A DNA stretch of 64,000 nucleotides from the NCBI GenBank assembly GCA_963575745.1, contig CAUYUJ010015704.1, positions 661,340-725,339 on the forward strand. The letters run 5' to 3'. Positions within the stretch are counted from its first letter, which is position 1. Each line of letters opens with the position of its first letter. The notes beneath the pieces are model-generated. The model had not been told where the DNA came from. It saw only the letters and a list, made by a program, of their open reading frames with translations, and searched no databases. This document shows positions 8,891 to 56,254 of the stretch, piece after piece. Source of the stretch: Prorocentrum cordatum. Taxonomy: Eukaryota; Sar; Dinophyceae; Prorocentrales; Prorocentraceae. The translations under genes were made by a program, and so were the position numbers.

Positions 8891-8929
8891 GTAGACAATG
8901 TGCAATCGAAGTTGCGCAAATGAGTTTAA

Positions 8930-9639: not shown

Positions 9640-9937
9640 TGTCGAGCCCACATGCATAATACAGACATCGACGCAAGCTGTGGGACCCCCCAGCCGGCTG
9701 AGACATAGCTTATCCCACAGTGTGGGATAAGGCATGCAGAGCGTATGTTGTGCAAGCGCTGCAGTGTGGCACGCCGTAGCGGTGACCGGTTCGTGTCCCA
9801 ACAGCTACACGGATGGCCGCTTCGATAGCGGATGGGCCGGCACGCCCAACATGTAGCAGCAGTCAGTTTGTGTGCATTCGCGTCGCGACTGCCGTTTGCG
9901 CTCAAGCCCTTCTCTTGGCAGGAAAAGCACCACGTCA
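9640..9937 (+). repeat. 5' LTR of copia element
   Basis: It starts TGTCGAGCCCACATGC and ends CACGTCA, so it has the canonical TG...CA termini. It is nearly identical to 28,991-29,291 apart from scattered substitutions and small indels near the middle. It presumably carries the promoter and polyadenylation signals, but none was recognised. Confidence 0.92.
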
Positions 9938-9955
9938 TGGTAGCGGAGCCGTGGT
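9938..9955 (+). other. Primer-binding site
   Basis: TGGTAGCGGAGCCGTGG follows the LTR directly. It resembles the TGGTATCAGAGC primer-binding site of many copia elements, which pairs with the initiator-methionine tRNA 3' end. The exact tRNA is inferred. Confidence 0.65.
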
Positions 9956-10140
9956 AACACACGGCTCGGCAATCCTGATCGCCGCAACGCCCACCAAGCG
10001 TGGGCATCGATCCACCAGCAGGGCTGCGGCCCGCGTGCGCCGTGGCTCGGCGCGCAGGCTAGTGCCCCGGGCTGCGGGTGGCCCCGCGCCGAGGCGCACG
10101 ACACAGCGCCGGGTAGCGGGTAGCCCCGCACCCTGGCACC

Positions 10141-11283: not shown

Positions 11284-11957
11284 GAGCTCTGCCCACCGCC
11301 GCAGCTAGCAGCGGCAGCGCAGCGGCCATACTGGGCCGCGACACGGACAGACCCGCCCCAGTGCTGGCAGCGACGCGGACGGACGCGAAGTACCTCATGA
11401 TCGACACGCGTGCTGGGGCGAGCGTGTTCCCGCGAGGACTCGACCCAGCAGCCGAGGGCGATTCGACAGTGGGCCCGGCGCGGCTCGCGACGGCGACGTC
11501 GCACGACCCGGTCGTCGGCGACAGTGGGAAACGGTCCCGCTTCGGGCCGCAGGGCGGCCGGCAAGTCACGGTGAGGTACAGCGAGGCCGAGGTGAAGTTC
11601 CCGATCGTTAGCGTCGCGGAGGCGGCAGGCCAGGGCAACTGGTTCCTCTTCGACCCGGGTCATCAGGTGATGCTGCCCAGCGAAGCGTCTCTGGACCTCA
11701 AGCGGATCTCGCAACTTCCCAACACGGTGAACTTGGAGAAGCACCGCGGGGTGCACTGGCTGCCGCGTCATTTGGAGGAGCCGCGGGACGCGACGCCCCT
11801 GTGTCCAGTGCGGCCGGCGGCTGAGGTCCAGCAGGCGCCGGCGCAGGCTCCAGCCCAGGAGCCAGGACAGGAGGCAAGGGCCTACGGCAGCGGTCTGGGC
11901 GCGGGCAGCCCCGCCCCGGCGCAGCTGCGGGGGGGCGAGGAGAGCCGTGCAGTTTAG
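11058..11957 (+). pseudogene. pol: copia Pol, aspartic protease region
   Basis: The retroviral-type protease processes Gag-Pol. In this frame the segment KYLMIDTRAGASVFPRG, at about 11,390-11,440, matches the protease active site, where hydrophobic residues precede D-[ST]-G-A. Here the triad reads D-T-R-A-G-A, an apparent insertion or substitution that may inactivate it. Downstream strands such as VTVRYSEAEVKFPIVSVAEA and GNWFLFDPG fit the copia protease fold. The frame differs from gag and equals that of the integrase region. A single TAG (11,955-11,957) separates protease and integrase. The part before about 11,284 overlaps gag and is probably not used. Confidence 0.75.
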
Positions 11958-13703
11958 CACAAGAAGCTCCCTCCAGAGGTGTCGAAGCTCGAGTTCGACA
12001 CCCACCAGATCACGCACTTGCCGTTCCGCTCGTGGTGCCCCCATTGCGCAATGGGCAAGGCCAGCGACGACGCCCATCGCCCGCGCCCTGACGCAACCAA
12101 GGGCGAGGCTAGGTTTGCCATGGATAACTTCTTCCTGGTGGGGGCCGTCGACCCGCAGCGGTTAAAGTCCGCGCTCAACTGCCTGGACATGCTCAGCGGC
12201 GCCGTCTTCGCAGCGACGGTGGTCAAGGGCGGCGATCCGTGCGCGCTGGCCGTCGTCATCGAGGCTCTGAAGTACACGGGCCTGACACGCGTGGCGATCC
12301 TCTGCGACCAGGGGAACGCCGTCAAGGAGCTGGCCGACAACGTCCGGGACAGCCGCGCCCACGAGACATCGCTGCTGAACACCCCGAAGGGGTCCGGCGC
12401 CAGCGATGGAGGCATCGAGCGGGCGAACTACGAGGTCGAGAAGCAGCTCAGGACGCTCTGGTCGCGTTTCGAGCAGTGCTACAACCTGACGGTGGACTTG
12501 GAGCACAAGATCTCGCCGTTCATGGTCAGGCGCGCTGCCTGGCTCCTGACCCACTTCCAGGTGAAAGCGGACGGCAAGACGGCTTACGAGAGGCTTCGCG
12601 GTCGACCTTACCGAGGCCAGGTTTCGGAATTCGGCGAGTCCGTCTTCTACCGGGGCCCGCAGAAGGCGCCCGACATGCCCGAGCTGGACTCCAGGTGGAT
12701 GCTGGGCGCGTGGCTCGGCAAGAGCTTGGCCTCCGACGAGCACTACGTCGGCACTCCCGCCGGGGTGCGCCGATGCCGGTCCATCTGGAGGCGCCCGGAA
12801 AGTGCGCGCTGGGGCCGGAAGATCTTGGATTCCATGGTCGGCGAGCCCTGGAATCCCAAGGGCGCCGGCGATGCGCCGAAGGCGGCTGCTCCGAGGGGCG
12901 TCTACATCACGCTGGACAGGCAGACCCAGCATGGCGGCGCTCCAGGGTGCCCGGCGTGCTTCGGACACGCGAAGGTGCACTCGCCTCAGTGCCGGGCACG
13001 CTTCCAGGAGATCATGGACAGGGACTCTCAAGCCAAGGCGGAGGCCCCGGCTGCGGGTAGCACCGCGCCGGCGGATCAGCAGCCCGGAGCAGGAGCTGCA
13101 AGCGGTTCGGCGGCAGGCGCTGCCGGGTCAGCATCGGCGTCGGCGGCGGGCAGCCCCGCGCCGGCCGCCGGCAGCATGCCGGCAGGGAGCTCTGGGGGGA
13201 CCGCTCCCATGGAGCTGAGCGGGGATACGGGCGGGTCCGCTCCCTCTCCTGATGCCTCCCTGGCTGATGGCACGCAGGTGGACGCGACCACCGACGACCG
13301 CAAGAAGCAGAAGATCTTGGCCGGCATGCCGACCCTCCACGCAGAGGACCCCGAGTATCCCAATTTGGACGTGCCCTCCGGATTTCTTGCCGCAGCCGAG
13401 TTGGACAACTCGGAGTGGACCCAGCAGATCATCGACTGGGGGCGGACGCGCTACGGGGTCAAGAGCGGCAAGGCGCTGGACAAGCAGAAGGTGTACGAGG
13501 GGCGCGTCCGCGAGCTCGCGAACATGGAGAGGCTCGGCGTCGGCGAGCCGATCTCTATCGCGGATGCTCGTTCGCTCGGCCTGGAGATCGTCTACTCCAA
13601 GTGGCTGGAGGACGCGAAGCCGACCGCCGAGGGCGAGATGGCGGTGAGGCGCGGGCTCGTGGCGACGCAGGTGAGCACTTACAACTGGGAGGACGTGACC
13701 CAG
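11958..13703 (+). pseudogene. pol: copia Pol, integrase region
   Basis: Integrase inserts the cDNA into the genome. The zinc-binding HHCC motif is visible as HQITHLPFRSWCPHC, just after the TAG at 11,955. The catalytic triad is D (in FAMDNFFLVG, codon near 12,123), D (in AILCDQGNAV, near 12,306) and E (in GGIERANYEVEKQL, near 12,417). The spacing is about D-60-D-36-E, as expected for Ty1/copia integrases. The C-terminal half contains a GKSLASDEHYVGTPAGVRRC block and then a low-complexity Ala/Gly/Ser/Pro linker (about 13,050-13,210) built of GCGGGYAGCMCCGC-type repeats. The frame runs without a stop to 13,703, where the DNA transposon interrupts between codons CAG and GCC. Confidence 0.9.
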
Positions 13704-13736
13704 CCCAGAGGTCCTCAGGATCTTGTTTTTCGATCC
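13704..13736 (+). repeat. Left terminal inverted repeat (33 bp)
   Basis: It starts CCCAGAGGTCCTCAGGATCT and ends TTTTTCGATCC. It is identical, base for base, to the reverse complement of 27,001-27,033. Confidence 0.95.
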
Positions 13737-13970
13737 TGACTCTAGGATCTGAAAATCCGATCCCAAAGAAGGAAAATCAGATCCTGACACTAGGATCTGA
13801 AAATCCGATCCCAAATCCTCAGGATCCAACCCTGGGCTTCCGGTCGAAAAATCCGATCCTGAACGATCGAAAATCAGATCCTGGATCTAGGATCTGAAAA
13901 TCCGATCCCACATCCTCAGGATCCGATCTTGGCCGTGGCCCATTTTAAAATCCGATCCAAACGTTTTATC
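13737..13970 (+). repeat. Left subterminal repeats of the 13.3-kb element
   Basis: At least eight full or partial copies of AGGATCTGAAAATCCGATCC and its variants lie here. The motif is nearly palindromic, because GGATC at one end is mirrored by GATCC at the other. Such arrays are typical binding sites for transposon-encoded proteins in EnSpm/CACTA elements; that role here is inference. Confidence 0.88.
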
Positions 13971-14145
13971 GAACTAGAAACATACGCCAAATATAAGTGA
14001 CTGAAGGTTTTTAACAGCTGCATAAGAACTGCGACTGTTTGGCTCGAGTTTACACAGTTTCTCTGGCTATTCATATAATGATATAAACAATTGCCGCCTC
14101 GACTGCTTCAAATCAGCACGCCCCCTCACACGGATCACGGCCCAC

Positions 14146-14967
14146 GTGGAGTTTGGCAGCCCCCCCCCCCCCCTTCGAGCAACCCCCGAAGCACCCCCAT
14201 TCGACCCAAGTGGCGTAGAGCCGACCGACGTAGTTTGCGGCAATGATGTATCGGGGGAAGGATCGTTTCAGCCCCCCCCCTCCGTTGCTCATACCACAGC
14301 GGCTTGGCTCAAGGCGATGAAAAGACCTGCAGGGGCCACCGAACCACCAGGGCCCGCAGAGTCTCCGCATCCACCTTCACCGTCCCCCGATTCTTTGACG
14401 CAGGGCAAGGTTCGTAAGAGCTGGGACGATGAGAGCGCGCTGGCAGACTTGTTAGAGCAGTATGTGTCATCAGCGGCCAAGTTCGTATGCAGGGAGGATT
14501 ATGACGGCACGCCAAACCACGACACTTTGACCAAGTGGAAGGACCTTCTCGTCTCGATCCTGGAACGCGCAGGCGGCGCAGGGATCGTTCCAACTACGGC
14601 GAACGCGTTCGAGGAGGTCGCTCGGAGGAACCAGAACAAGAAACGCTGGCAGGTCGTTGGCGCAGAGGTCAAGCCTTGGGCAACCGCCCAAGGTAAGCGG
14701 CTCAGGGCCATGCTCCGCGACGTGGGGCAAGGCCTTTGCATGGCCAGAACGAGGCCTCACAAGGCTGCGCCAGACTGGCTCGCGCCATTTCTTGCAGTTC
14801 AGGGGCGTAAACCACTGGGCCAAAAGCATCCTGGATCGTCGAAAGCATCGCGCGTAGACGCAAACCCGTCACGTTCCATCGGATCCCGTCGAGATGCGAT
14901 GGCGCACGATGGAACGCGATGGGTTGACGTCTGCGTGGGCGCGTTCGGGGATCAGCGGACTTCCTGA
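14146..14967 (+). CDS. Hypothetical protein or exon in the 13.3-kb element
   Basis: No family was recognised. The convincing part starts after an acceptor-like TTTGACGCAG at 14,394-14,403, where an exon beginning GGCAAGG would encode GKVRKSWDDESALADLLEQY. It continues through LTKWKDLLVSILERAGG and RRNQNKKRWQVVGAEV. The region is helical and charged, with many K, R, W and E, and shows G/C third-position preference. The N-terminal portion before 14,404 is Pro-rich and may be untranslated or a separate exon. The end near 14,940 is uncertain, because the sequence from about 14,860 becomes GATGGAACG-type repeat. The exon probably belongs to the same multi-exon gene as the downstream exons to 19.8 kb, but the joins cannot be proven by eye. 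Confidence 0.45.
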   Translation: MEFGSPPPPLRATPEAPPFDPSGVEPTDVVCGNDVSGEGSFQPPPSVAHTTAAWLKAMKRPAGATEPPGPAESPHPPSPSPDSLTQGKVRKSWDDESALADLLEQYVSSAAKFVCREDYDGTPNHDTLTKWKDLLVSILERAGGAGIVPTTANAFEEVARRNQNKKRWQVVGAEVKPWATAQGKRLRAMLRDVGQGLCMARTRPHKAAPDWLAPFLAVQGRKPLGQKHPGSSKASRVDANPSRSIGSRRDAMAHDGTRWVDVCVGAFGDQRTS

Positions 14968-14999
14968 GACTTCGGGGCGAGGTTCGAAGATATTCTGGA

Positions 15000-15215
15000 T
15001 GGCATAATAATCGAGGGGAGGGTGACTCTCCTTCCGACGAGGCGTTCCCATTCCCCCCCCTCCCGTCTTCCTTCTTCCTCCTCCTTCCCCCTTCCTCCTC
15101 CTCCCCCTCCTGCCCCTCCTCCTTCTACCCTTCCTCCGCCCCTTCCGACGGCGCGCGCCCAACCCCCTGGCGTCTCCAAGGGAGGGGGGTGATTATTTGA
15201 CAATCCAGAATAAGC
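15000..15215 (-). repeat. Short element, left member of an inverted pair inside the 13.3-kb transposon
   Basis: The inner part contains CCGACGGCGCGCGCCCAACC and GGGGGGTGATTATTTGACAA. The reverse complement of both is found at 20,855-21,045, so the two copies face each other. A CCTCC-rich core fills the middle. No coding capacity is seen. Confidence 0.7.
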
Positions 15216-15362
15216 CTAGCGAGAAATGCCTGTTTGCGAACCTACGAGGTTCGGACTGATGACGGACCATCTCCCGGTCAGGCTGCGGCGGCGTCTCCGC
15301 CGCCATCCGTTGCTGCAGACACCTCCGTGAAGTTCGCGTGCGAGTGCGACGAGGAGACGCAG

Positions 15363-15695
15363 GCAAGGCAAGGGGGGGGGGAGGAGGAGGATGAGGAGGA
15401 GGGGGAGGAGGGGGAGGAGGAGGAGGAGGAGGAGGAGGGGGAGGAGGAGGAAGGAGGAGGAGGAGGAGGAGGAGGAGGAGGGGAGGAGGGGAGGAGGAAG
15501 GAGGAGGAGGGGGAGGAGGAGGAGGAGGGGGAAGAGGAGGAGGATGAGGATGGGGAGGATGAGGAGCACGACGAGGAGCAGGAGCAGGAGAGAGGAGGGG
15601 AGGGGAGGAGGAGGAGGTGGAGGAGGAGGAGGAGGAGGAGGAGGAGGAGAAGGAGGAGGAGGGAGGAGGAGGAGGAGGAGGAGGAGGAAGCCCCC
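15363..15695 (+). repeat. GGA/GAG purine-rich microsatellite
   Basis: About 330 bp of GGA/GAG triplets make long Glu/Gly/Arg pseudo-ORFs on one strand and Pro/Ser/Leu on the other. None of these is a gene. Confidence 0.93.
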
Positions 15696-15706
15696 GTGTA
15701 GGCGGG

Positions 15707-16517
15707 CTTCAGATGGCAGATGATGATGAAGGCCGATGGCACCACTTACCGCCAGAGTGCGCATGCTCCAGACCACCACGCATGGGTGCAGAGCCAGGTG
15801 AACTTGCAGTCGTATATTTTGCCAACGAGGAGGGCGATGACACGCCCTGGGAGATTCCGAACTTGACCGTCGGAGAGCTGACGGCGCGCCCATGCGACCC
15901 CAGACCCAACAAAACCATAGCAGAGGCGCACACACAAAAAAAACAACACAAAAAAAAACAGAAAGTCGTCCTCCGTGCCAACAAGGAGTTTGCGAACCAG
16001 GAGAAGGGCAGACCCTGCAAGAAGATGCTGCAGATGCAATTTCGTGGGGGCGAAGGGCTTCGACAAGTGACACAGATGGTTGTTTCGGACTTGTCAGAGG
16101 AGAAATTTAGGGAAGCGACCACCTACATGAGAACCCTCATGGAGAAGTTCGCGCGTGGCGAACTGGACAAGGACGGCGCGATGAAGCTCAAGAGCGAGTG
16201 GGAGATCGCTTTCAAGGCGGGGGGGGGGGCGAGTCCCAGGTCAGAGCTCCGTCGCCATGAAACGCCCATCGGCAGCACCCAAATCAGCACTGAGGCGCCC
16301 AGCGGCATGCGACGAAGCTGCAGGCGGAGAAGAACTGGACCAACATGCTGAAGAGCACGAGGAACCCAGTCAGACGATCAGGAAGCCTGCGGCCGCATCC
16401 ACCCTCGACCCCATCAGAACTCCGAGTCCGAAGAGGAGGCGTGTACTGCCTGCTGCTGAGCCCGAGATTGAGGTCCCGCGCCCTGGTCAGATTCCTTCGT
16501 CTAGCGATGACGGCTGA
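15707..16517 (+). CDS. Hypothetical protein or exon with MKRPSAAPK motif in the 13.3-kb element
   Basis: No recognised domain. The protein-like part starts after the purine tract: ELAVVYFANEEGDDTPWEIP, then a basic stretch, then GRPCKKMLQMQFRGGEGLRQ and DLSEEKFREATTYMRTLMEK, a helical region ending in KSEWEIAFKAGGG. A poly-G run at about 16,217-16,226 marks a +1 change of frame, after which the frame reads MKRPSAAPKSALRRPAACDE and stops at TGA near 16,517. MKRP-Ala-type starts are common in dinoflagellate multi-copy protein families, so a separate gene start at 16,257 is an alternative to a frameshift. An A-rich insertion near 15,935-15,960 encodes a Lys/Gln run. Exon limits are not resolved. 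Confidence 0.45.
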
Positions 16518-16876
16518 AGTGCGTCTTGGGACTAAAAAATGCAAAACTTCTGGGGGGGTCACCTGTCTCTCCCATCCGCCTCACTCATGTGATGGCATAT
16601 AGCATGAGTGCCATGTGTGTGAAAATACAAAATAAACCCAACAGAAAGCAAGCTTCGCTGTGAAATCGTCAGAGGCTGAAGGGAGAGTAGTATTCGCATG
16701 GAGCATTCGTAATGGCGATGGGCATTCGAGGGCCCCACATCTGACTTCCGCCTCGCCCCCCCCCCCCCCCCGCCCCCACCTGCGCTGCCATTGTTTGCTC
16801 AGAAGCACGTCTCAAACGTTAATGCCGACCTTTTACGATTTCACGACCAGCACGAGCAGCTGGGCAGCAGATCAGC

Positions 16877-17422
16877 ATGGCAAAGGTCAGGGAGCCAACA
16901 CTAGGGGGAGGGTGGAGGAGGTTGGAGGTGGAGACAACGAAAACTGAACCAAGAAAACGAAACCCAGGATGGAGGGACGACTGGAGGAGGAGAGGGAGGT
17001 TCAGTGGAGAGGTTTCTCCCCGCCCCCACAAGGGCGCCATTCCCAACATTCCCGACGGGAGTTCGACGCAGAGCGAGGGCGCACCAGAACAACAGAGCGA
17101 CGCACCCGGCGGACCTGGTTCGAACGACGACGGCGAGACCCCTACACCCTGTGGCGCGGCTCCAGAGGCTTCAGAGGACGAATCGTCAGAGGGATTTCCA
17201 GGGCAAGGGCCACATGACGAGGCTTCAGAGGACAAGGCCTCAGAGGCTGTGCCGGAGGAGAGCCCTCGAGGGGGTCAGCCAGATGAGCTTGCATCAGATG
17301 ATGAGCGCGCTTCACCCTATGCTGAGGTCAGCGCAGAGGGCAGGGAGATCTTCGAGGGCCTCAGCGCTGCGAGCGCCCGCATGCAGAAAGGGGTTCTTGG
17401 GCGAAGAAGGGGTGGAGAATGA
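16877..17422 (+). CDS. Acidic low-complexity hypothetical protein or exon
   Basis: The frame is open for 181 codons. The first third is basic and Arg/Trp-rich and may not be coding. From about 17,030 the composition becomes acidic, with Ser/Glu/Asp-rich phrases such as APEASEDESSEGFPGQGPHD and EASEDKASEAVPEESPRGG. It ends in a helical EVSAEGREIFEGLSAASARM segment followed by a GGA-rich microsatellite. The pattern of SEDE-type acidic linker followed by a helical segment matches its neighbours in the element, so it is probably an internal exon of the same gene. No domain or function was recognised. Confidence 0.35.
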   Translation: MAKVREPTLGGGWRRLEVETTKTEPRKRNPGWRDDWRRRGRFSGEVSPRPHKGAIPNIPDGSSTQSEGAPEQQSDAPGGPGSNDDGETPTPCGAAPEASEDESSEGFPGQGPHDEASEDKASEAVPEESPRGGQPDELASDDERASPYAEVSAEGREIFEGLSAASARMQKGVLGRRRGGE

Positions 17423-17679
17423 GGAGGAGGAGGAGGAGGAGGAGGAAAGGAGGAGGAGGAGGAGGAAGAGGAGAAGGGGAGCACACCGCCACACTACATC
17501 CGATGTCATTGCTTGCCATCGCGATGCGATGGACTGCGAGGGCCCTGACCGACAAACGACGTGGGCATCCCAATTCTCAAACTCATCCAGGCCCCAACCC
17601 TCTTCCCCCCCTCCGTCCTGATACTCTTCTACCCCCTCCCCTGATCCACTCGTCGTCCTCCGCCTCTTCTTTTTCTTAG

Positions 17680-18024
17680 GTTCTCAACTTGACGGTGAGC
17701 CAGTTCCTGGAGCAGGCGAACCGCGAGAAGCAGGTTGCAGCTGAGCGGTTGTCCAGCGTGGCGGGGGGCGACCCTTCGAAGTCCGAGGCCATGCTGTGGG
17801 ACATGGCGAAGCTGGCCGCAGAGGAGATGAAGCACGATGGTCCAGACATGGACGAGGAGGATGTTGACAAGCTCACGCCGTTCTTGAAGGCCGAGTTCGC
17901 CTTCTGGTCGGAGATCAAGGAGCAGGGCTTCTTCGCCCCAGCGGGCGCCAAAGTCCACGCGGTTGGGAACCGCTGGCAAAGGTGGCGATCGGCCAAACTA
18001 CCCGGTCCCAGGCAATCGCGATGA
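17680..18024 (+). CDS. Exon of the multi-exon gene in the 13.3-kb element
   Basis: A pyrimidine-rich intron end CTTCTTTTTCTTAG (to 17,679) is followed by G, the AG|G acceptor context usual in dinoflagellates. The exon then encodes VLNLTVSQFLEQANREKQVA, continues through KSEAMLWDMAKLAAEEMKHD and DKLTPFLKAEFAFWSEIKEQ, and is mostly helical and acidic. The exon end is uncertain and probably lies between 17,930 and 18,024, because the last residues are basic and less protein-like. The next acceptor-like sequence is at 18,088. I associate this type of protein with large dinoflagellate-specific multi-copy families of unknown function; that is recall, not a search. Confidence 0.5.
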   Translation, partial: VLNLTVSQFLEQANREKQVAAERLSSVAGGDPSKSEAMLWDMAKLAAEEMKHDGPDMDEEDVDKLTPFLKAEFAFWSEIKEQGFFAPAGAKVHAVGNRWQRWRSAKLPGPRQSR

Positions 18025-18088
18025 TTGCTAAACCTCATCCACCTCCCCCCTCATCTCCTTTCCTCCTCCTCCCCCTCTTTTTTGTCAG

Positions 18089-18400
18089 CTCTACGGAGCG
18101 GAAGCAGTGAGATGGCGCTGACGGGGGTAACCCAAGCAACGCCATCTGAGAGGATCAACACGCGCAGCCTGAGGCCGAGAGTCGCTTGGCCTGTCCTGAC
18201 AGGGAGATGAAGAAGAAGGACAGCAATTGGGCCGCCGACTACAAGAAGTGCAAGACTGACGTCGCCAAGAGCAAGCTGCGGTCCAAGTGGGCCGAGGAGA
18301 AGTGCGATACCTACAAGCAGGAGCGCAGCGTGATCCTCAAGAAGACGAAGAAGACTTTGAAGAAGAAGTACCTCGGGAGTGGCAACGACTTGGCTTCGCC
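18089..18400 (+). CDS. Lys-rich exon of the multi-exon gene
   Basis: A strong pyrimidine tract ending TTTTTTGTCAG (to 18,088) looks like an intron acceptor. The supported coding part, from about 18,205, reads EMKKKDSNWAADYKKCKTDV, then AKSKLRSKWAEEKCDTYKQE, and ends in a Lys-rich KKTKKTLKKKYLG segment. A poly-C tract follows at 18,409-18,420. The high Lys/Trp/Glu helical content matches the exons before and after it. The function is unknown, although the basic helices would suit nucleic-acid or chromatin contact; that is speculation. Confidence 0.45.
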
Positions 18401-18660
18401 TCGGACCCCCCCCCCCCCCCTCAGTCGCGCACTGGCATCGGACCTCTGGCCCGTCATCGAATCGAACGTTCGGGCCCAAATGGGCTCTGTGCGCAATGGG
18501 TGCGTCCGGGACGAATGGGCTGGATCAGTGTTCACGTGCTGCGCTCAGTCGGCAGAAACTTCAGAGTTGTAGACGGGTTTGGGGTCCAAGGTTGACGTTT
18601 GCCCACGGGGTGTGCAACGCGTGAGCCCTGATATAGTCATCTAGTCGTTGTGATCCTGCA

Positions 18661-18911
18661 GGTCCGTCTTGCCGCTGGGCCGCATCGCATGGCTCGAGGG
18701 AGGAGGCAAGTCAGGAATGGACGCGGCAATCCAGAACTGCATCAGCTGCGCCCAAGCAGGGCCCACGTTCTACAGGTGCCACAACTTCACGAAGAAGGTC
18801 CGCTTCTACTACAACGCGGACGAGGAGGATGAGAGCATGGAGGAGCAGTGGGAGATGAAGATGCAGTGGCTGCACAAGCGCAGCATCAAGGTCAGGCAAC
18901 GAGAGATGTGA
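18661..18911 (+). CDS. Exon with PLGRIAWLEGGGKSGMDAA motif
   Basis: The acceptor ATCCTGCAG (to 18,660) is followed by G, again AG|G. The exon encodes VLPLGRIAWLEGGGKSGMDA, then QNCISCAQAGPTFYRCHNF, then an acidic NADEEDESMEEQWEMKMQWL segment. The likely donor is AAG|GTCAGG at about 18,892-18,894, so the final residues to 18,911 are probably intron. The PLGR...GG... block resembles a recurrent motif of dinoflagellate multi-copy proteins. A possible micro-exon follows at 18,997-19,010, between TACTTGCAG and GTGAGC, but it is too short to support alone. Confidence 0.5.
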
Positions 18912-19079
18912 TTCCATTCGCGCCTCGTCCGACGTGCGAAAGCAAATTCAGGATCCTCGTCGTCACGCTGGACTCGTCCACATACGTACTTGCAGGGTCC
19001 CAAGTCCTGGTGAGCTGGCGTGGAGAACCACACCTATCGTTGCTCACTCAAGGCAGCCACTGCGCACGGTGAAGGCAGC

Positions 19080-19804
19080 AGCGGTCCGACCGCGTCGGGG
19101 CCGCGCAGGCGGCCGCGGGTCAGGGTTCGAGGAAGATCGCCAAGGGGGCCACCAGCATCGACGGCGAGGAGCCGACGCCTGATCCACCAACCAAGCAGTG
19201 CCGAGAGAAACTGGGCAAGATGCGCGACGAGCAGGCGGATGAGCAACCGCAACCACCACGTAAGCGGCCCAAGGCGGAGCCTGCACTGCCTGCGGCGCCT
19301 GCAGAAGAGGAGGGGGATGCGGCGGCGCCTTCAGCGAAGCCGAGGGGCAAGGCCAAGGCCAAAGCGAGGGCCGAGGCAGGCGCGAAAGGGCTCGCTGGTA
19401 TCAAGGGCAACTCCGAGGCCAAGGCGAAATCGATGAAGCTGAACTTTGCATGCGCCGTCGCGCAGGCCGACAACTTCCTCGAATCCAAATTTGAACCAGA
19501 CAAGCAGCTCAAGAGCGAGTGGACTTGGGCAAAGCAGGACCTCGCCGAGCTCCAGCAGCAGCTCACGTCCCTGAAGAGCGCCCAGGTCAATGACAGCTTC
19601 GCGAACGACTTCCTCTCGTCCATGGACTTCGCCACGTTCAAGAATGAGAAGCTGACCAGTATGGAGGTGCAGGGCTTCATGGTGGCCCTCGACAAGTTCT
19701 CGAACCTCGTGGACCAGCCGATCCTCGACGCAGCGCAGACCATCGAGATGCTGAACGAGCAGATGGCGCTGCGCAGGGCAGCCAAGAGGTCGTGGGGACC
19801 TTGA
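19080..19804 (+). CDS. C-terminal exon of the multi-exon gene in the 13.3-kb element
   Basis: From about 19,220 the frame is open to TGA near 19,804. It begins MRDEQADEQPQPPRKRPKAE, contains an Ala/Lys-rich linker (KPRGKAKAKARAEAGAKG) that is histone-H1-like in composition, and then a well-formed helical domain with LNFACAVAQADNFLESKFEP, LKSEWTWAKQDLAELQQQL and NDFLSSMDFATFKNEKLTSM. It ends RAAKRSWGP. The exon start is not certain; coding probably extends 5' to about 19,080 in another frame. This is the clearest coding segment in the left half of the transposon. No known domain is recognised. The long helices look like a coiled coil. Confidence 0.55.
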
Positions 19805-20284
19805 GCCTCGCACCCGTCCGACCCCTCGCTCTCCCCCCCTCCAGTTCCCCCTCTTCCACGCCCTCCCCAATGTTCTCCTCCTCCTGATCCTCCGCCTCCT
19901 CCTGCTCCTCCCTCCCTCCTGCATCTCTTCCTGCTCCTCCTCCCTCTGTTCCTCCTCCGCCTCCTATCTTATCATCCTGCCCCTGCTCCGCTCGAGTGCC
20001 CGGTAGGCTCCGAGAGGGTCTCGCGAAGCTGATGGGCCTGCAGTTTGGGCCTTTGCGCTCCCACGGCTGTAGAGATATGTGAAGGGGGGAAGCGGATTGG
20101 GGAATGAGGGCCACTTCGGAGGCCCATTGGACGACCCATGATGGGGGCACGGAGAGAAAACCGTCGAGTGGAGTGCGAAATCGTAGCTGAAGGGCCTGGA
20201 TTAACGCTGAAACCTAAGAAAAGAGCGAGCAACTCGAAAAATCATAGGTTTGGCCCTCGGAGGGCTCGCTTCGAGCAATACTGG
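19805..20284. other. Noncoding, CTCC-rich then unique
   Basis: A pyrimidine-rich CCTCC tract at about 19,830-19,970 follows the stop codon. The rest shows no supported gene. Confidence 0.55.
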
Positions 20285-20465
20285 ACCGATGGGAGGCCGA
20301 TGGAAGGCGATGGACGGCGATGGAATCGGCGATGGAATCGGCGATGGATCGGCGATGGAACCAGGCCACCATCTGCGATAGGGATGCTCTGAATCGACCC
20401 GTTCCATCGATGGAATCGGCCATCGATGGAAGGAGACGGAAGGCGATGGAAGGAAGGCGATGGAA
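20285..20465 (+). repeat. GATGGAATCGGC short tandem/dispersed repeats
   Basis: At least ten copies of GGCGATGGA or GATGGAATCGGC lie here, some inverted. Related GATGGAACG/GTTCCATCG sequence occurs at 14,870-14,915 and 25,200-25,250, all inside the transposon. Confidence 0.75.
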
Positions 20466-20854
20466 CCCCTATTTCTGCTGTCGGGATGCTGTTTGAAGGG
20501 TTTCAGCGATCTTGCGCTGAGATTTTCGATAGCCCATCTGCTTCTACATGCTGTTAGGCGTCTCTTGCTTGACCTGAAGCACCCGGTCTCGCTCTCTGTC
20601 CTGTTCCCGCGCTCCCAGCCCCAAACCTTCTGACGTTGCTCGGCTACGCCCCATTCAATTTGTCTTTGTGCCACGAATAGCACTGCCGGGCAGAGTTGCT
20701 ATGCGGCTCCCCTAGGGGTGGGGGTGCGATAGCACACAGAGAGATATGATGTCCAAAATGGAACACAATCGCAAACTGCACGCCCCGTGCGACGTCAACC
20801 CTCCACGCTTTGGCCCCCGCCATCCTTCACAGGAGGCACGAATGCAGCGTTCTC

Positions 20855-21045
20855 TGGATTGTTTAATAATCACCCCCGCCCCCGTGGAGGCCTCAAGGGG
20901 GTTGGGCGCGCGCCGTCGGAAGAGGTGGAGGAGGGGTTGGGGGAGGAGGGGTGGAGGAGGGGGAGTGGGAGGAGGAAGGAGGAGGGAGGAGGGGCGGGGG
21001 GAGGATGGAGGAGCTCCGTCGGAAGGCTAATCACGACCCCTCGAG
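20855..21045 (+). repeat. Short element, right member of an inverted pair inside the 13.3-kb transposon
   Basis: It reads GGATTGTTTAATAATCACCC and later GGGTTGGGCGCGCGCCGTCG. Both are reverse complements of sequence at 15,000-15,215. It ends in CCGTCGGAAGGCTAATCACG just before the transposase-like gene. Confidence 0.7.
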
Positions 21046-21078
21046 AAATATGTCACCCAGAGTACAATCAGTAAGAAC

Positions 21079-23480
21079 GTGGCGGGGCAGGAGGCGGAAG
21101 TTCTTGAACATTGTGTCGCGAGCGTCCAATCGTCATCGCATCAACCCGTAAACGCGCAGCCATCGGGCCCGACCGCGCAACCATACTCGGTTTTTTGTCT
21201 AATGAACGAGGAAGATGAATCTCAGCGGGCGCGATGGCGAGAGGGCGGACACAATTTGTTGCGACATTTGCTTTCGTTGAAAGCCCAAGGTAAAATCGCT
21301 GCAGCAGACCTGCGCATCGCTGCTCATATTGCAAATGAAGCTGGGTGCATCGGCGCTGAGTTTTCCAGATTCGGCATGCCGCCAGGGCGGCAGACAGGAA
21401 AATACCAACAAAAGCTTAACGGTGCACTACCCGGTCCAGGGCCCGTGGTGTGGGGCAGGATCCCGACGATGCTCAGAAGTACCAGCGCGCGTTCAAAAAC
21501 ATATGTGCCTTTTGCTGCCGTTTGGGAGTTGATGCACGATGACATTCAACGTGGCCCTGATATGTTGGATGCCCCGTCGAGTATGTCTTGGCCGCGGGTT
21601 TACCATGAGCACTCTGTGACGTTGGACTGCAGGGCAAAAAATGAAAGGGACCCCATCCCCATAGCGTTTTACATCGATGGTGTAGCCTATACCTCGCATA
21701 TCGCAGGTCGTTCCGACTCGATCGAAGGTTGTTGGATCATCAATCTCGCCAATGAGAAGAGGTATTGGTTTGGGGGGCTCAGAACTAACGACTGCTGTAG
21801 ATGCGGATGCAGGGGGTGGGACAGCTACTTTCCAATGATGAGTTGCGTGGGGTGGGTATTAGAACAGCTAGCTAAAGGGAAACGGTTCAACAGACTGTGG
21901 GATGGTTCAGAATATGAGCCTTGGGACCCATTGACACATTTGAGACGTGAGCGGGGTGGTGACCTAGGGTTTAGGTGTGCGTGCATCTGGATTAAAGCGG
22001 ATCTTGCGGAGAATTCGCATACGTTGGGCTTTCCTAGCGTCAACAGTTCAATGAATGTGTGTCCATTCTGTAGGTGCACTAGTAGCGATTGTCACGCAAG
22101 ATACGCCAACGCAAGATTGGACAGCATCCCGTGGGCGAGAAAAACAAAAGACAGCTACGACAGGCAGTGCTCTCAGTGTAGCAAGGTTCGTGTCATTCAG
22201 ACTTGTGAGCAACAGGCCGCCGTGATGAAGCAGGGGCGCTTGACCCCAATGGAAGGTAAAGGTTATGGGGGGGGAGAACTCTGCTGGCCGACGTGCCTGC
22301 CCTGCAACTTCTCGCAGGGGATCGGCTGGAACCGTTCGACGGTTTCAGAGACCCTGCAGATTTCGAGCGAAAGCAACCTCCATTTCAGTGCTTGTTTTGG
22401 CGGGAGTCTCTGAGTGCAGATCGGAAGCTCGAAGATTCGATTGTCCACAGACGCCCTCTCTTTGATGATGAAATTGGCACGTCCGTCGAACACTTGGCCG
22501 TAGACGTTCTGCATTCATTATACTTTGGCCCAGTGCAACGAGTCTCGTCTGCAATCTTTTGGAGGCTGGCGCTGGCGAGCCCTTGGAGGGTACGAGCGTC
22601 CACCGCTGACCAACGCGTAGAAATCTGTATCAAGCAGCTGCGTCAAGACCTGATCCAGTGGCAACATAATCAGAAAAATCCTACTTCGGATCGCATCAAT
22701 GACTGGACTCGGAGCATGATGGGGGACATCAAAGGGGCAGTTAATTCGCGGGAGCTCTGTCACGATGGTGGTGGGCTGAAACTGAAAGCAGCGGAATCTG
22801 GAATCGTGCTTTTGTGGGCGGTGTCCCTATTGATTCGGTTCTCTGAGCACATACCGTTTGCCGAGGATCTAATGAAAGCGGGCGAGGCGCTGCTTCGCTA
22901 CGCGGATGTTATCAGGGCTTGTCCTCGTGTCCCTGCTGCCGCTCGGTGTGAGGAATTGCTCGCCATGTGACGTCGTGCAACGTCTACAGCCAGGCTGCCA
23001 AAGTGTCCCCCGCACCAAAGTACCATTTCTTTTACGAGATGGCCGTGGGGATCGAACTGCGTCGGGGCGGGCTGCAATAATATTGCTTTGCGATTTCGGC
23101 GTCAACCCGGTAAGGCTAGAGCATCGACGCGAGTTTTAAAATGGCAGGCACTGATGGCGAGGATAGGCAAGCTCACACCATGGGGAATCGCGTCAAAACC
23201 ATATTGTTGCAGCTCGCCCCAGAGGATTCCATTTTTGGGGAACCCATTTTTCTACGCGTGTTGGAGGGGCGAAGGGCTGAACCATGTTCTCAGAACCTTG
23301 GCAGCATCGTCGCATCGGATCACCTTTTACTTGCGCATCCATGCATCATTCAATCTCATCGGAAGCATGGGGCTCAATTCTTACATACATGGTCATTCTG
23401 ATGATATACATTTACTTGCCATAGAAGATGGCGGCCTTGAACAATCCATGGGCGTCGAGGCTGCCTGGGTGGATTCCTGA
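21079..23480 (+). pseudogene. Decayed transposase-like protein of the 13.3-kb element
   Basis: The frame 21,079-22,360 contains AFYIDGVAYTSHIAGRSDS, RYWFGGLRTNDCCRCGCRGW and DLGFRCACIWIKADLAENSH, then TLGFPSVNSSMNVCPFC. After a frameshift near 22,290-22,320 the next frame continues with GDRLEPFDGFRDPADFERKQ and DDEIGTSVEHLAVDVLHSLY to 22,970. A third frame has KVSPAPKYHFFYEMAVGIEL, and then GNPFFYACWRGEGLNHVL with a histidine-containing ITFYLRIHASFN. An Asp in a DG pair, a second Asp before a CPxC, and a C-terminal GNP..Y....E.LN segment recall transposases of the CACTA/Plavaka type and a large dinoflagellate protein family. At least three frame changes make this copy inactive. The DDE reading is inference from spacing and position in a TIR element. 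Confidence 0.5.
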
Positions 23481-23485
23481 TGTCG

Positions 23486-24151
23486 CGGAGGGGGAGCTTG
23501 TGCGGCGTGGCTCGTGGCAAAAAGTTGTTCCCGTTACCGCCCTCATGGCAATCGCGAATGAGATTTCATTCCTGTGGACAGTGCCCGCGAGGACTCATTA
23601 TGTCTTCTATTCGCCGGGCATGCGGAGGCGTGCCGCTTCGCTCGGGGGAGAGGTCACGGCACTTCCAGCGTTGAGTATGCCATCGAATTCGATCAGGACG
23701 TTACGCGTTTGCCAGGTATGATGTGGGCATTGTGGTGCGTCATGAGGCTCAAAGAGGGAGCCTTGCTGTGGTGCAGTCCCGAATGCAGGACGTGGCTATC
23801 ATTCCTGTCACGTGCAACATACCTACGGACAGAGGACAATGGGTGGTATGGTGCGGCAACCAATGCATCCAATGTGAAAACTGCGACAGATGCAACTCAC
23901 TGTGCTACCGTAATGCCGCTGCCTCAGGTTTGTGTTTCTTGGGGGATGTTGCCGCGGGGCTCGGTGCACGAGGTTTTAAAGCTAAAGCAAACCCTGGGGA
24001 ACTCTGCAGTGACCTGGGGTGCCTTCCTGGGGCATCTAGTGTTGTTCGTTGTTTTCGGTTTGGGGGGCAATCCTTGCACATCTCGGTGCGCCCCTCGTTC
24101 GACCCAGGTATCGCTGCCAATCGGAAGGTGATCGGATCTCAGGTCTACTGA
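23486..24151 (+). pseudogene. Possible methyltransferase-like relic in the 13.3-kb element
   Basis: The frame 23,574-24,131 contains GTSSVEYAIEFDQDVTRLPG followed by WALWCVMRLKEGALLWCSPE and CRTWLSFLSRATYLRTEDNG. This matches in outline a dinoflagellate repeat-associated family that I recall having an E/D-rich SAM-pocket strand (here AIEFD) followed by a G-PC-S motif (here CSPEC). On that reading it would be a degraded class-I, DNA-cytosine-like methyltransferase domain. The catalytic Pro-Cys pair is not intact here (SPEC). Frames shift at both ends, and a second frame (23,723-24,151) overlaps. I cannot exclude that the similarity is coincidental. Confidence 0.3.
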
Positions 24152-25560
24152 TATCGGTCGGGGTCGATCGCCGAAGGCACCGCCGACTCCGATGTTCAGA
24201 TTGGTTCTTGAATGAGCGTGTGGCTTAGGTCGTGGCTCATACATCGGGCGCACTTTCGGGGCGTGCATTGGGCGATCGGGCAACCGCTGTGCTCGCTACT
24301 ATACAAATTTGGCCCCGTGCGCTCGACAATTCGAATGACAGGCGCAGTGAGATACACGACTTCGCTATCAGCGTTTGGCGGTGCCTCCCAGAAGACCCTA
24401 GAGATATATTGCACAGTTCCAGAGGACGGTGGATCACCCAAACCATACACGCATCAAGTCTGATGACCCCTCCCCTAAACACACTAACTAGAAAAACGAG
24501 CAAAGAGGCAGCGCCCACGATAAATGTTTGTCCTTCGGGGGGGGGGGGGGGGGGGGGGGGGGCTCGGATCAGGGGTGCAATGAGTGAATGGGCAATGGGT
24601 CCCTCAGTAGAGTCAATCCGCACGCGTCGGTGGCAATGGACAAGGGTGTCTCCATGAGCGCAACATGTTTGATATGGGGTCTCGCCAAGCTTCGTGGGAA
24701 CACACCATCATCAAGCCTTCCATCGGCCGTGAGACCTTGGATTCCAGATCCAGCGAACCTGGGTGCAGCGCCACCTCCGCATCTGCCCCCCAGGAAATCA
24801 TGGAGGAACACATCGCCAGGACAATCAGGGGCGGCAGGGCCAGGCTCCGAGCTGATTCGATGAAGGCGCAGCCGCTCTATGAGGTGACAGCGGATGGATT
24901 TGTCGTTGGCAGGCGGCGCGAAATGCGTGCGAGTCAGCGGTATCCGCCCGAGCTTGCAGAGGCGATTGCGAATGTAGCGACCGCGCTCCAATCCATTGTA
25001 GTTGAGGACTCTTCGCAGGCTGTTTGAGGCCAGGTGTCAGTTCGAAAAAGTGGGGGGGAAAGGGTTTTGAACCAGGTGCCTGGTATGATCTTCCTGGGGC
25101 GGCGTTGTTTTCGTTTCCTTTGGTTGCCGTTCCAATGTCTTGCGTGAGATCTCGGCGGAGCGCTGCTGACTGAAGACGTGAGGATGCGTTTCGTGCAAGG
25201 GGGAGCATCGAGTTCCATCGCATGCCATCGCCGCGCGAAGGCAATGGAATTGAGTTCAATCGAGTCGAACGCATTGTCATGCTATGAACGCTTTTGGCTT
25301 CAGTTCCTCTTGACAATATGAAGCGGTCTTTTTCGCCACCCCCTGCCGCGGGCAATGGGCAGGACAGGCAGCCAACAACTCCTGTTGGAACCAAGAGGCC
25401 TCGTGGAAAATTTCGCGTCAACCCACCTTCCACTGCAGACCTTGACCATGCACCTACGGGCGTCACATACTGATGGAGTAGGTTGCATGGCCAAGGTCTG
25501 CTGGGGAAGGTCGGTGGACGCGACATCTCCACATCAGTTGCACGTGAGAAGGTAAACATT
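24152..25560. other. Right interior of the 13.3-kb element, no confident gene
   Basis: A poly-G run of about 22 bp lies at 24,540-24,562. An ORF at 24,665-25,027 (+, 120 aa) has a protein-like tail, VTADGFVVGRRREMRASQRY and then PPELAEAIANVATALQS, and could be a last exon. Its N-terminal part looks random. Nothing else is supported. Confidence 0.4.
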
Positions 25561-25564
25561 GCGT

Positions 25565-25650
25565 CGCCTAAAGTCGAGGCCTGGCGGCCAACTCCGCTTA
25601 ACCAATAACGTAACTAAATCGAGGCCTGGCGGCCAATTCCGCGACGCCAT
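25565..25650 (+). repeat. Two direct copies of a TCGAGGCCTGGCGGCCAA motif
   Basis: TCGAGGCCTGGCGGCCAA followed by [CT]TCCGC occurs twice about 48 bp apart, separated by TTAACCAATAACGTAAC. The core GGCCTGGCGGCC is partly palindromic. Confidence 0.8.
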
Positions 25651-25674
25651 TAAAAGTACAGTGAACTGATGGCT

Positions 25675-25880
25675 TTGAATGAGGAGCTGAAGGGGGAGGA
25701 GGCGGAGGAGGAGGAGGAGGAGGAGGCGGAGGTAGGAGGGGTAGAACGAAGGAGGGCGAGGAGGAGGACGAGGAGGAGGGGGAAGAGGAGGAGGGGAGAA
25801 GAGGCGGGAGGCCGAGGAAGAGGTCGCGGAGGAGCTAAAGGCAGGAGGAGGAGGAGGAAGGAAGAGGACAACAAGCAGGG
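25675..25880 (+). repeat. GGA/GAG purine-rich microsatellite
   Basis: About 200 bp of GAG/GGA triplets. All overlapping ORFs are low complexity. Confidence 0.9.
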
Positions 25881-26249
25881 GATTCGGCGAGCAACCTGGC
25901 AAGAGGGGATTTCATATTGATGCACCCGGTGCTGCAAGACATTCCCCAGGGATGTGCCAGGTGCGCCAGAGACCTCGCCAGACGGTCCCCACGGCCGCGG
26001 CGAACGCCCGCTGGAATGGCGACAGCCGCGTCCACGAGGGAAACTTTGGGAAAGTTGGAATGGCGAAAGCCCTATGACTCTACGAATGCCACAACACAAG
26101 TTGTAAACCAGCACGCGTTGCGCAACCTATGGCCGCAACCTGTGCGTAACCTATGGGCCGCGCGCCGCGTGAACCCAGCCATGCAACCACAAGGTATACA
26201 ACGAATCAGAGTCAAAACCACACAGGAAGTCAACAAGCAAAGCTGATAT

Positions 26250-26745
26250 TCTTCACGTTTCGCGCATCCCCACCAGCCCATCCAGAAACGGTGCTTGGGA
26301 AGGAGGAGGCAAAGGAGGAACAAGAGGAGGAAGAGAGGGCTGGCGGAATCGCCAGAGGCCTCTCGAACTCTCTTGGGATGCATTTTGGGAGCTGGTTGGA
26401 AGATTACTGGAGCGTCTTGGGGGCCTCTCGGCGGTCTCTGGGGGCGCCTTGGAGAGGCATGCGCGGGCAGGTTGCGCCCCGCCCGCCCGCCCGCAGGGCG
26501 AAAGAGGAGGGTCTAATACAGAGTTGGCGCCATCTTGGAGGACATCGATCAAAGAAGGGGGTTGTGTCAAATATGTGGGGGTGTTGAATTTCAGCCTTCC
26601 CAGGAGCCGAACATGCGCCCTCTGACACCTCGCGGGGCGCCCAGCCCACGCGGGGGGGAGCGGGGCAAACACCTCCCCGAAGGAGAAGAAAAGGGTTGGA
26701 AGAGAAATCTCGTTAGACCACCTACGTTTAAATAGCTGGTGATCT
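26250..26745 (+). mobile_element. Short repeat family, copy B, nested in the 13.3-kb element
   Basis: The left end is CGCATCCCCACCAGCCCATC. The interior has GGCCTCTCGG-like repeats, CATCTTGGAGGACATCGATC and AAAGAAGGGGG. The right part has CAAACACCTCCCCGAAGG and ends ACCACCTACGTTTAAATAGC followed by TGGTGAT. It is a decayed copy of the same family as 47,733-48,325. Confidence 0.75.
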
Positions 26746-26794
26746 TAAGAATAAGTAAGTTTTATGATTCAAATACAAAGCGAATATACGATAA

Positions 26795-27000
26795 CACCTG
26801 GATCTAGGATCTAAAAATCCGATCCCAAATCTGCAGGATCCGATCCTGCGTCTTGGATCTGAAAATCCGATCCCACATCATGCAAAATCCGATCCAGGAT
26901 CGAGGATTTGAAAAGCCGATCCCAAATCCCTTGGATCCGATCCTGCGTCTTGGGTCTGAAAATCCGATCCCAAAGCCTTTGGATCCGACCCTGGGCCCTT
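26795..27000 (-). repeat. Right subterminal repeats of the 13.3-kb element
   Basis: Several copies of GGATCTGAAAATCCGATCCC and inverted or variant forms fill this interval, mirroring 13,737-13,970. Confidence 0.88.
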
Positions 27001-27033
27001 GGATCGAAAAACAAGATCCTGAGGACCTCTGGG
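27001..27033 (-). repeat. Right terminal inverted repeat (33 bp)
   Basis: It ends GATCCTGAGGACCTCTGGG and is the exact reverse complement of 13,704-13,736. The flanking AG at 27,034-27,035 duplicates 13,702-13,703. Confidence 0.95.
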
Positions 27034-27608
27034 AGGCCACGCCGCCCATCAAGGAATCCAGGATGATCGTGAGCATGGCTGCCACGAAGACCAATGCCAA
27101 GGGGCAGCGCGACTGGTTGATCGGCCTCCACGACATCCGAGTGGCATTCTTCCACGCCGCTGGGTCGGGGAGGGTGGTGATCATTCCGCCTCGTGGTCTG
27201 GCGCCTCCTGGCGTGGGCTGGCGAGCTCTGGAGGCCATGCATGGGACGCGCGAGGCCAGCAAGTGCTGGGGCAACGAGGTCACCGACACTATGAAACTCG
27301 AGGGCGCCAGGCAGGTCGTAGTGGTGCCCATGATGTTCGTCTCCGACAGCTTCGGGTGCGCCACGTGCTGCCACGGCGACGACTTCCTGACGGCAGGCGC
27401 GGCTTCCGCCCTCGACGAGATTGACCGGGTGCTGACGAAGAACTTCGATGCGGAGATTTTGCCTCGGATCGGACCGCCGGCGCACGGCGGCGAGTTAGTT
27501 GAAGGGCAGCACCTGGGAAGGGCGATCCGCTGGACACCCGGGGGTTTCGAATGGGAGACCAATCCCAAGCATAAGGGGGGATCTCCTGAGCCTGGCAGGG
27601 CTCAGTAA
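27034..27608 (+). pseudogene. pol: copia Pol, reverse transcriptase region
   Basis: This is the RNA-dependent DNA polymerase domain, continuing the pol frame cut at 13,703. It opens with ATPPIKESRMIVSMAATKTN. The first catalytic Asp block is GLHDIRVAFFHA, equivalent to the DV..AFL motif of other copia RTs. It is followed by WRALEAMHGTREASKCWGNE, the equivalent of the ALYGLKQ...W region, and by the catalytic pair in CCHGDDFL at about 27,363-27,386. The domain is shorter than typical, and the region between IIPPRGLAPPG and WRALE is abbreviated. A G-run near 27,578 shifts the frame just before the SLAGLSKDSKGAPTP segment, which belongs to the next piece. Confidence 0.9.
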
Positions 27609-28357
27609 GGACTCGAAGGGCGCACCGACGCCGTCGTCTAAGTCGACCGCGGCCGGCAGGCGCGACAGGGGCGACGACGTGGAGGGCGAGGCCGCGACGA
27701 GCTTCAAGCAGGCCGCCGGCACCGCGCTGCACCTGCCCATCGACCGCCCAACCATCCAGTTCGCTACGTCGCAGGTGATGGCCGGGATGAGCATGCCGAA
27801 GGTGTTGCACGGCTTGCAGCTGAAGCGCGTGACGCGCTACGTGCTCAAGCACCCGACGGAGGCGTGGCTTTTCAGGTGCCAGAAGGAGCCCGGCGGTCTG
27901 CCCGTCTACACGGACACGGACTGGGCAGCCGACGAGCTGAAATGGAAGTCAACCTCGTGCACGGTGGAGCGGTACGGGGACCACATGCTGGATTGCAGCG
28001 TGGCCAAGCAGGCGACGATCGCGCTGTCAAGCGTCGAGGCCGAGTTCTACGGCATCGCGCGCGCGGTGGCGAATTGGGAAGCAGACGAGCCAGATCCTAT
28101 GCCAGATGGGCCTTGCGAGCGATCTGACCGTAGCGTCAGACAGCTCGGCCGCGCGAGGCATGCGCGGCCGGGCGGGTTCCGGCAAGGTCCGGCATTTGGC
28201 GATAAAGGAGCTGTGGGTGCAGGAAGCGCTGAGGAACAAGGAGTTCGAGCTCGCGATCGCGGACGCGCTCCTGAATTGGGCCGACATCGGCATGAAGGCG
28301 CATGCAGCGGAGAGGCCGGACTCCCTAGTCAGGCAACTTCCGCTTCGCCGCCTGTGA
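27600..28357 (+). pseudogene. pol: copia Pol, connection and RNase H region
   Basis: RNase H degrades the RNA strand of the hybrid during reverse transcription. After the frameshift near 27,578 the frame reads SLAGLSKDSKGAPTPSSKST, then the connection helix HGLQLKRVTRYVLKHPTEAW. The RNase H motifs follow: VYTDTDWAAD (first Asp, about 27,904), STSCTVERYGDHM, and QATIALSSVEAEFYGIARAV (Glu, near 28,040). A second frameshift near 28,090-28,105 precedes ASDSSAARGMRGRAGSGKVR (third Asp) and ELWVQEALRNKEFELAIADA, ending RQLPLRRL and TGA at 28,355. The domain order and catalytic residues are complete, but two frameshifts make this copy inactive. Confidence 0.88.
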
Positions 28358-28990
28358 GAGGGGCTGGCGGCGGCGATTGTACATGCACTTTGCGCGCGTT
28401 AAGCCCATGCCCGCCTAAGACACCGTAGGTGTGGAGAAGGCGCGCGCCGGCTGCATGCCACCCTGGCCTTCGTGGCCGTGGAGGGGATCACGCACTCCGT
28501 CCGCACCGCGTCCGGAAGACAATGAGTTTGATGCGACGGTCGCGGGTGGCACCGCACGGCATCTGGACAGCGACACTTCTGATGCGATGGCTGCGGGTAG
28601 CACCGCGCCAGCGCAGGCGATCCAGGAGGGCGCGGGCAGCGCCGCCCGTGATCGCGAGGCTCACGCCGAGGAATGCCCTGGGGCGACCTTCCGTGCCAGG
28701 TTGGGCCCAAGGCGGCGGCCAAGAGGGTCGCTGTGACCGGGTGGTCGCGGGCAGCTCCGCACCGCTGAACTTCGCCGCGCGCGCCGGCAGGCGGCGAGAC
28801 GTGAGCCCGGTCGGGCCGAGGAGCCCAGCCCGACCAGGCGGGAGTGATCCTGAACGACTGGTGAGAGTAGGGACAGACCCTCGGACGAGGGGAGGAGGCG
28901 ACTGCCGTAGCTTTGGCATCGCCTGGCTGCTTTCTTGCATGTGACGCCCCCTGTCGCTTGGCCCAAGATGGGCCGGCAGCCATGGAGGGG
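28358..28990 (+). other. copia 3' untranslated region with polypurine tract
   Basis: No ORF is supported. The GCGGGTAGCACCGC-type motif recurs at about 28,545, 28,590, 28,633 and 28,748. The interval ends in a short polypurine tract, GGAGGGG (28,984-28,990), directly abutting the LTR, the expected plus-strand primer. Confidence 0.7.
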
Positions 28991-29291
28991 TGTCGAGCCC
29001 ACATGCCTAATGCAGACATCGACGCAAGCTGTGGGAACCCCAGCCGGCTGAGACATAGCTTATCCCACAGAGCGGGATAAGGCATCCAGAGCGTATGTTG
29101 TGCAAGCGCTGCAGCGTGGCACGCCGTAGCGGTGACCGGTTGTCGCGTTTCCCAACAGCTACGCGGATGGCCGCTTCGATAGCGGATGGGCCGGCACGCC
29201 CAACATGTAGCAGCAGTCAGTTTGTGTGCATTCGCGTCGCGACTGGCGTTTGCGCTCAAGCCCCTCTCTTGGCAGGAAAAGCATCACGTCG
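28991..29291 (+). repeat. 3' LTR of copia element
   Basis: It starts TGTCGAGCCCACATGC and ends CACGTCG, whereas the 5' LTR ends CACGTCA, so the terminal A has mutated. The two LTRs differ at roughly a dozen visible positions, including a small indel near the middle, which indicates that the insertion is not recent. Confidence 0.92.
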
Positions 29292-29296
29292 AAATT
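29292..29296 (+). repeat. Target-site duplication AAATT (right copy)
   Basis: It matches 9,635-9,639. Joining the flanks here restores a continuous tandem-array unit. Confidence 0.85.
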
Positions 29297-55985: not shown

Positions 55986-56254
55986 AGGTAATGTTCAGCA
56001 GTGGGTTTCAGCACCAACAACCACAACAACAGCAACAACCATCATCGTGTTAAGTCCGTTTGCTCCTATCTGCTCAAGTGCTAATCAATACGTGTATCCC
56101 GAGCCTTCGGTACCCGCCCTCGTCGTCTTCGATCGTACCCCCTTGGGGGTAGATCTTCATTACCTGGCACGTGCATGTAGTGCAGCCCCTAAAACAGGGG
56201 AAGAAAGGACGGGAGAAGGGGAAGGGAAAATGATGGGGCACGAGAGAAATTCTA

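Follow-up and report, generated by a model that had tools for sequence, protein, structure and literature searches.

A nested DNA transposon of Prorocentrum cordatum with CCC..GGG termini and transposase relatives of predicted RAG1 fold

Introduction

In the very large genomes of dinoflagellates, DNA transposition has been inferred from introners more than from defined autonomous elements. What, then, is the 13.3-kb insertion that splits the pol gene of a copia-like retrotransposon in Prorocentrum cordatum? It lies in a stretch of 64,000 nucleotides (contig CAUYUJ010015704.1 of assembly GCA_963575745.1, positions 661,340 to 725,339), hereafter the window, whose G+C content is 60.05%; 59.7% is reported for the species in an excerpt of PMC10666404. 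We conclude with high confidence that the insertion is a full-length, coding-dead copy of a family of cut-and-paste DNA transposons, whose DDE (Asp-Asp-Glu) transposase has a predicted RAG1 core fold and falls in the CACTA-Mirage-Chapaev-Transib (CMCT) clade. No such dinoflagellate family is named in the titles and abstract openings of the papers listed by literature searches, Repbase not being covered.

Results

Perfect inverted ends and a reconstructed empty site

The original prediction had described an element with perfect 33-bp terminal inverted repeats (TIRs) and with ends set to the base, and both statements hold. The two TIRs are identical at 33 of 33 positions, the repeat goes no further, the next base outward being unpaired, and AG stands outside each end (Table 1); an exact 2-bp duplication recurs in the genomic copies described below. 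At up to three mismatches, the first 20 bases of the element occur in the window only at the two ends of the element, 0.02 matches being expected.

As had also been claimed, a copia pol frame, open over 772 codons, is restored when the element is deleted along with one AG; the 13,332 bp removed are divisible by three. With the joined protein 18 relatives were found, 12 of them listed with an RVT_2 domain (the RVT_2 match of the host copia itself scores under the curated cut-off); the top one is an 'unnamed protein product, partial [Prorocentrum cordatum]', at 90% identity. For 17 of the 18 the alignment runs through the junction without a gap; the last fails to align there. Sixteen of the 17 retain the Q-A pair where the element is inserted. 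Since the relatives are continuous across the junction and keep Q-A, a loss of exactly the element and one AG is supported. The nesting gives the relative order of events, the element being younger than the copia insertion, but not the precise dating that had been announced. At the DNA level no orthologous empty site was met with, and no search was aimed at one.

Of two other readings, the first was rejected and the second set aside. Ends of the CA..TG type, two bases further in, would suit the CMCT clade, but they come without matching 2-5-bp flanks and leave two surplus codons in the copia frame, seen in none of the 17 aligned relatives. The AG duplication could also be a splice acceptor, as in an introner, but among canonical donors the GT closest to the left end leaves 7 bases and shifts the frame.

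Table 1. Features of the element and of its host, in window coordinates.
Feature	Position	Strand	Remarks
Whole transposon	13704-27033	+	13,330 bp; basis: TIRs, 2-bp duplication, empty-site frame
AG target duplication, left copy	13702-13703		
AG target duplication, right copy	27034-27035		
Left TIR	13704-13736	+	33 bp
Right TIR	27001-27033	-	33 bp
Left subterminal array, unit AAAATCCGATCC	13752-13958	+	7 matches, all + (1 mismatch allowed)
Right subterminal array, unit AAAATCCGATCC	26814-26970	+	5 matches, all + (1 mismatch allowed); orientation as left
Open frame outside transposase	15563-16351	+	block 15788-16218 kept between two copy groups
Transposase, first piece (frame 1)	21190-22262	+	53% identity to P0001; also holds CRCGC
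First Asp motif IDGVAYTS	21673-21696	+	in first piece
Second Asp motif KADLAE	21994-22011	+	in first piece
CPFC	22060-22077	+	in first piece
Transposase, second piece (frame 3)	22260-22967	+	DRLEP, DVLHSLYFG; 44% identity to P0001
KYHFFYE, H(3)E site (frame 2)	23018-23038	+	
Transposase, C-terminal piece (frame 3)	23187-23402	+	39% identity to P0003, 49% to P0008
GEGLN, presumed catalytic Glu	23268-23282	+	in C-terminal piece
Probable coding block, kept between two copy groups	24223-24408	+	changes by codon position 31:10:6
Host copia-like long terminal repeat (LTR) retrotransposon	9640-29308	+	LTRs about 9640-9951 and 28991-29308
Copia pol before insertion	11958-13703	+	
Copia pol after insertion	27036-27605	+	

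Four further copies with the same ends

A genome-wide search with the terminus, which the original prediction had set as its test, was run on the P. cordatum assembly (4.13 Gb, 21,875 contigs). The exact terminal 20-mer has 10 matches (control, 0), forming four inverted pairs that span 13.2-13.8 kb and two singles. One single, on contig C16844, has a partner with one mismatch, which makes five full-length copies in all; the other, on C8424 (408776), has no partner at up to four mismatches in the 18 kb read (594 N included), and no transposase similarity was found in those 18 kb. The test thus returned four inverted pairs besides the window copy, each with a 2-bp duplication. The target duplications of the five copies are AG, CA, TT, TT and CC, exactly 2 bp in each case, and five chance matches would have a probability of (1/16)^5. 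The boundary of the C16844 copy is less certain, because its left flank ends in CCC.

The first 18 bases are alike in all ten ends. The copies fall into two groups, one made of the window copy, C13820 and C17366 (91.0-93.7% identical), the other of C17432 and C16844 (94.5%). Between groups, identity is 71.0-72.4% over the 3.1-4.1 kb that can be aligned.

Behind the TIRs stand GATC-rich subterminal arrays with a main spacing of 48-50 bp. The unit has 12 matches in the window at up to one mismatch (0.41 expected), every one of them on the + strand and no more than about 260 bp from an end of the element, so that the termini are inverted but the arrays direct; comparison of the two element ends by blastn also gave the direct orientation. 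With the copies turned alike, array polarity is the same in all five, the second copy group using a different unit.

Transposase motifs and predicted fold

Frame 21031-22413 has relatives in the protein database, 10 in a first search and 31 in all, among them proteins of Symbiodinium sp. CCMP2592, of Amphidinium carterae and of a Pyramimonas transcriptome, and none of the 31 is listed with a Pfam domain. Pfam scans of 10 window frames, then of 10 of the 31 relatives and one window piece, gave only weak matches under the cut-off; three relatives and two window frames had no match in NCBIfam, and PDB sequence searches matched no transposase at the thresholds used. One PDB hit, a viral VP3 aligned over about 50 residues (E 0.0046), was taken as chance, and scans of viral contigs gave 203 pattern stretches but no relative and no terminus. 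Two of the relatives, P0006 and P0028, come from the Pyramimonas (green alga) transcriptome, P0028 being 59% identical to the relative P0001; horizontal spread or contamination could account for this.

According to an excerpt of PMC12730594, CMCT elements have C(2)C and H(3-4)H motifs in the interval from the second Asp to the last Glu, 2-5-bp target duplications and, in most cases, CA..TG ends. Spacings were read in the relatives within windows bounded by the search patterns, truncated rows being excluded. From the second Asp to the Cys the spacing is 20 in 25 of 27 relatives and 19 in two; from the second H/E to the Glu it is 20 in eight of nine and 21 in one; and of 16 His sites, 11 read H(3)H and five H(3)E. 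The relatives thus carry, as judged from their sequences, the motif pair of the clade. The duplication is likewise within its range, being 2 bp in five of five window-family copies and in one of five pairs of a distant group (below). The termini are CCC..GGG in all ten ends, as the original prediction of an undescribed or divergent, CACTA-like family without CACT ends would have it. This does not exclude CMCT membership, because the paper gives CA..TG for most elements and not for all.

The predicted fold of the relatives matches RAG1, amphioxus RAG-like and HzTransib proteins (VIA-align over the top 1000 chains of Foldseek), and the models point to a RAG1 core fold. These matches are what a Transib- or RAG-type element proper would give, but target duplications of Transib are 5 bp and those of all five copies are 2 bp, the ends are CCC and not CAC, and the PDB chains of RAG1 or Transib were unmatched by sequence at the thresholds used. 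We therefore consider such an element very unlikely.

Nine blocks can be aligned between the window copy and C17432. The last gap between transposase pieces is probably an intron, because the alignment to the other copy group runs through it. Of the seven blocks that lie apart from the core and the right end, two change mostly at one codon position (61:32:36 for block 15788-16218; Table 1 for the other), as coding DNA would show, and the other five are flatter. No significant Pfam or NCBIfam family was found in the window frames scanned outside the core. These blocks may be accessory transposon genes.

A distant group with homologous termini

P0001 matches at least 70 genomic stretches, at least 55 of which are stop-free, some being short pieces; with 68 of 5009 candidates scored, these are lower bounds, and stretches do not equal copies. 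On contig C17289, three transposase-matching stretches lie within 63 kb (24388-87305). In a distant subfamily, 32% identical to P0001, two copies resemble each other at 97.6% over 12.4 kb; the right edge that they have in common ends in CCCTGGGGTCCACAGGATCT, which is homologous to the terminus of the window copy. The pattern CCCWGRGGTCCWCAGGATCT has 25 genomic matches (control, 0). Five pairs were read in this group, and C336, with TT, is the only one having a 2-bp duplication.

These termini bear on whether the family could be an ordinary CACTA/EnSpm one with termini drifted from CAC..GTG, which would have the same clade motifs, the 2-bp duplication and the subterminal repeats. However, CCCAGAGGTCCTCAGGAT starts ten of ten ends in the five copies and a homologous CCC end persists in the distant group, so that the CCC terminus appears as an old family trait; moreover, there was no significant Pfam match. 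Drift from CAC..GTG is therefore unlikely.

Surroundings of the element

The LTRs of the host copia are 92.8% identical to each other. Diverged repeats (about 67-78% identical) flank it on both sides (8925-9607, 29955-31820, 35069-39410), as if copia sat within an older repeat. Third-position G+C is 0.55-0.57 in the transposase pieces (21190-23402) and 0.79-0.87 in the copia frames (10195-13703, 27036-27605). Tandem repeats with a unit length of about 89-101 bp form long arrays at 43271-44941, 51221-52702, 54667-55995 and 62628-63529; the first array and the last (43-45 kb and 62.6-63.5 kb) are related and inverted to each other.

Discussion

The results support a genuine, nested, full-length DNA transposon, from a divergent lineage of the CMCT clade with termini of its own. 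Several observations weigh against this interpretation. The window transposase is split over three frames, and a tblastn search with P0001 found an unbroken core in none of the five full-length copies. The window copy and its subgroup have H(3)E instead of H(3)H, so that the CMCT His pair is only half present there, and the high-confidence model is that of P0012 (31% identical to P0001), not of the window protein. Finally, the consistent flanking duplication that had been predicted stands for the five copies with the window terminus, but fails in four of the five distant pairs: C40 (AG/AA), C6458 (CT/AA), C9369 (TG/CG) and C13364 (CT/AG).

In this distant group C6458 has on its left the flank that C13364 has on its right, and shares its other flank with C40, each at 100% over 400 bp. 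Such identical 400-bp flanks on different near-identical copies (L076/L079; L078/L080; C13364, C6458, C40) would be explained by assembly mis-joins between these copies, or by recombination, an explanation that is not proven and does not cover C9369. Odd combinations of this kind are also what an assembly artefact or a segmental duplication, rather than transposition, might leave. The window copy and its four fellows, however, each stand between flanks of their own; they are 71-94.5% identical pair by pair, have their ends in common and carry an exact 2-bp duplication apiece, and the copia pol relatives are continuous over the insertion site; for these copies an artefact is extremely improbable.

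Starting from the observed ends, duplications and copy pairs, and from the motif spacings and predicted fold of the relatives, we infer the following scheme. The transposase would recognise both the CCCAGAGGTCC...GGACCTCTGGG termini and the one-way arrays that follow them, and would pair the two element ends. Its DDE site would excise the element, as RAG1 and Transib do, and the excised DNA would be inserted at a target whose strands are cut 2 bp apart. For the window copy, the enzyme would have come from an unbroken relative, unless the move preceded the disruption of its own frames. The predicted transposase most likely works like other cut-and-paste enzymes of RAG1 fold.

There is an even chance, in our view, that the family represents a RAG1-fold lineage of superfamily level, at home in dinoflagellates and perhaps in other algae, with termini of the form CCCnGnGGTCC, free choice of a 2-bp target and subterminal arrays that are direct and run one way. 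Such a lineage, abundant and partly unbroken in P. cordatum, would be an outgroup, still living, for tracing how the RAG1/CACTA fold arose.

Comparison with known systems

By the terminal features tested, the family is not EnSpm, Plavaka, ESTA or Transib. It resembles CACTA/EnSpm in the CMCT motifs of the transposase relatives, the short duplication and the subterminal repeats. The subterminal arrays of En/Spm run both ways, whereas those of the window family are one-way at both ends. EnSpm families have CAC..GTG ends and 3-bp duplications (excerpt of PMC12730594), against CCC..GGG and 2 bp here. Plavaka shares the CMCT clade and the 2-bp duplication, but ends in TGT..ACA or CATCA..TGATG (same excerpt). 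ESTA differs by its TA target duplication, found in none of the five copies.

RAG1, which cuts the antibody genes of vertebrates, has C(2)C and H(3)H spacings close to those in the family. Together with the predicted core fold, this brings the family near Transib and RAG1/RAG-like proteins, from which it is set apart by the length of its duplications and its CCC ends; it adds a protist outgroup for the RAG1/CACTA fold.

Some dinoflagellate introners also have TIRs and target duplications, and the literature seen in excerpt does not name the enzyme mobilising them. Those of Symbiodinium have 4-bp duplications (excerpt of PMC9860276); the window element is 13.3 kb long with a 2-bp duplication, and no GT-AG splice with a canonical donor was seen at its ends that keeps the copia frame. 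With its 70 or more matching stretches, many of them unbroken, its RAG1-like predicted fold and its own termini, the family offers a defined element for testing DNA transposition in dinoflagellates.
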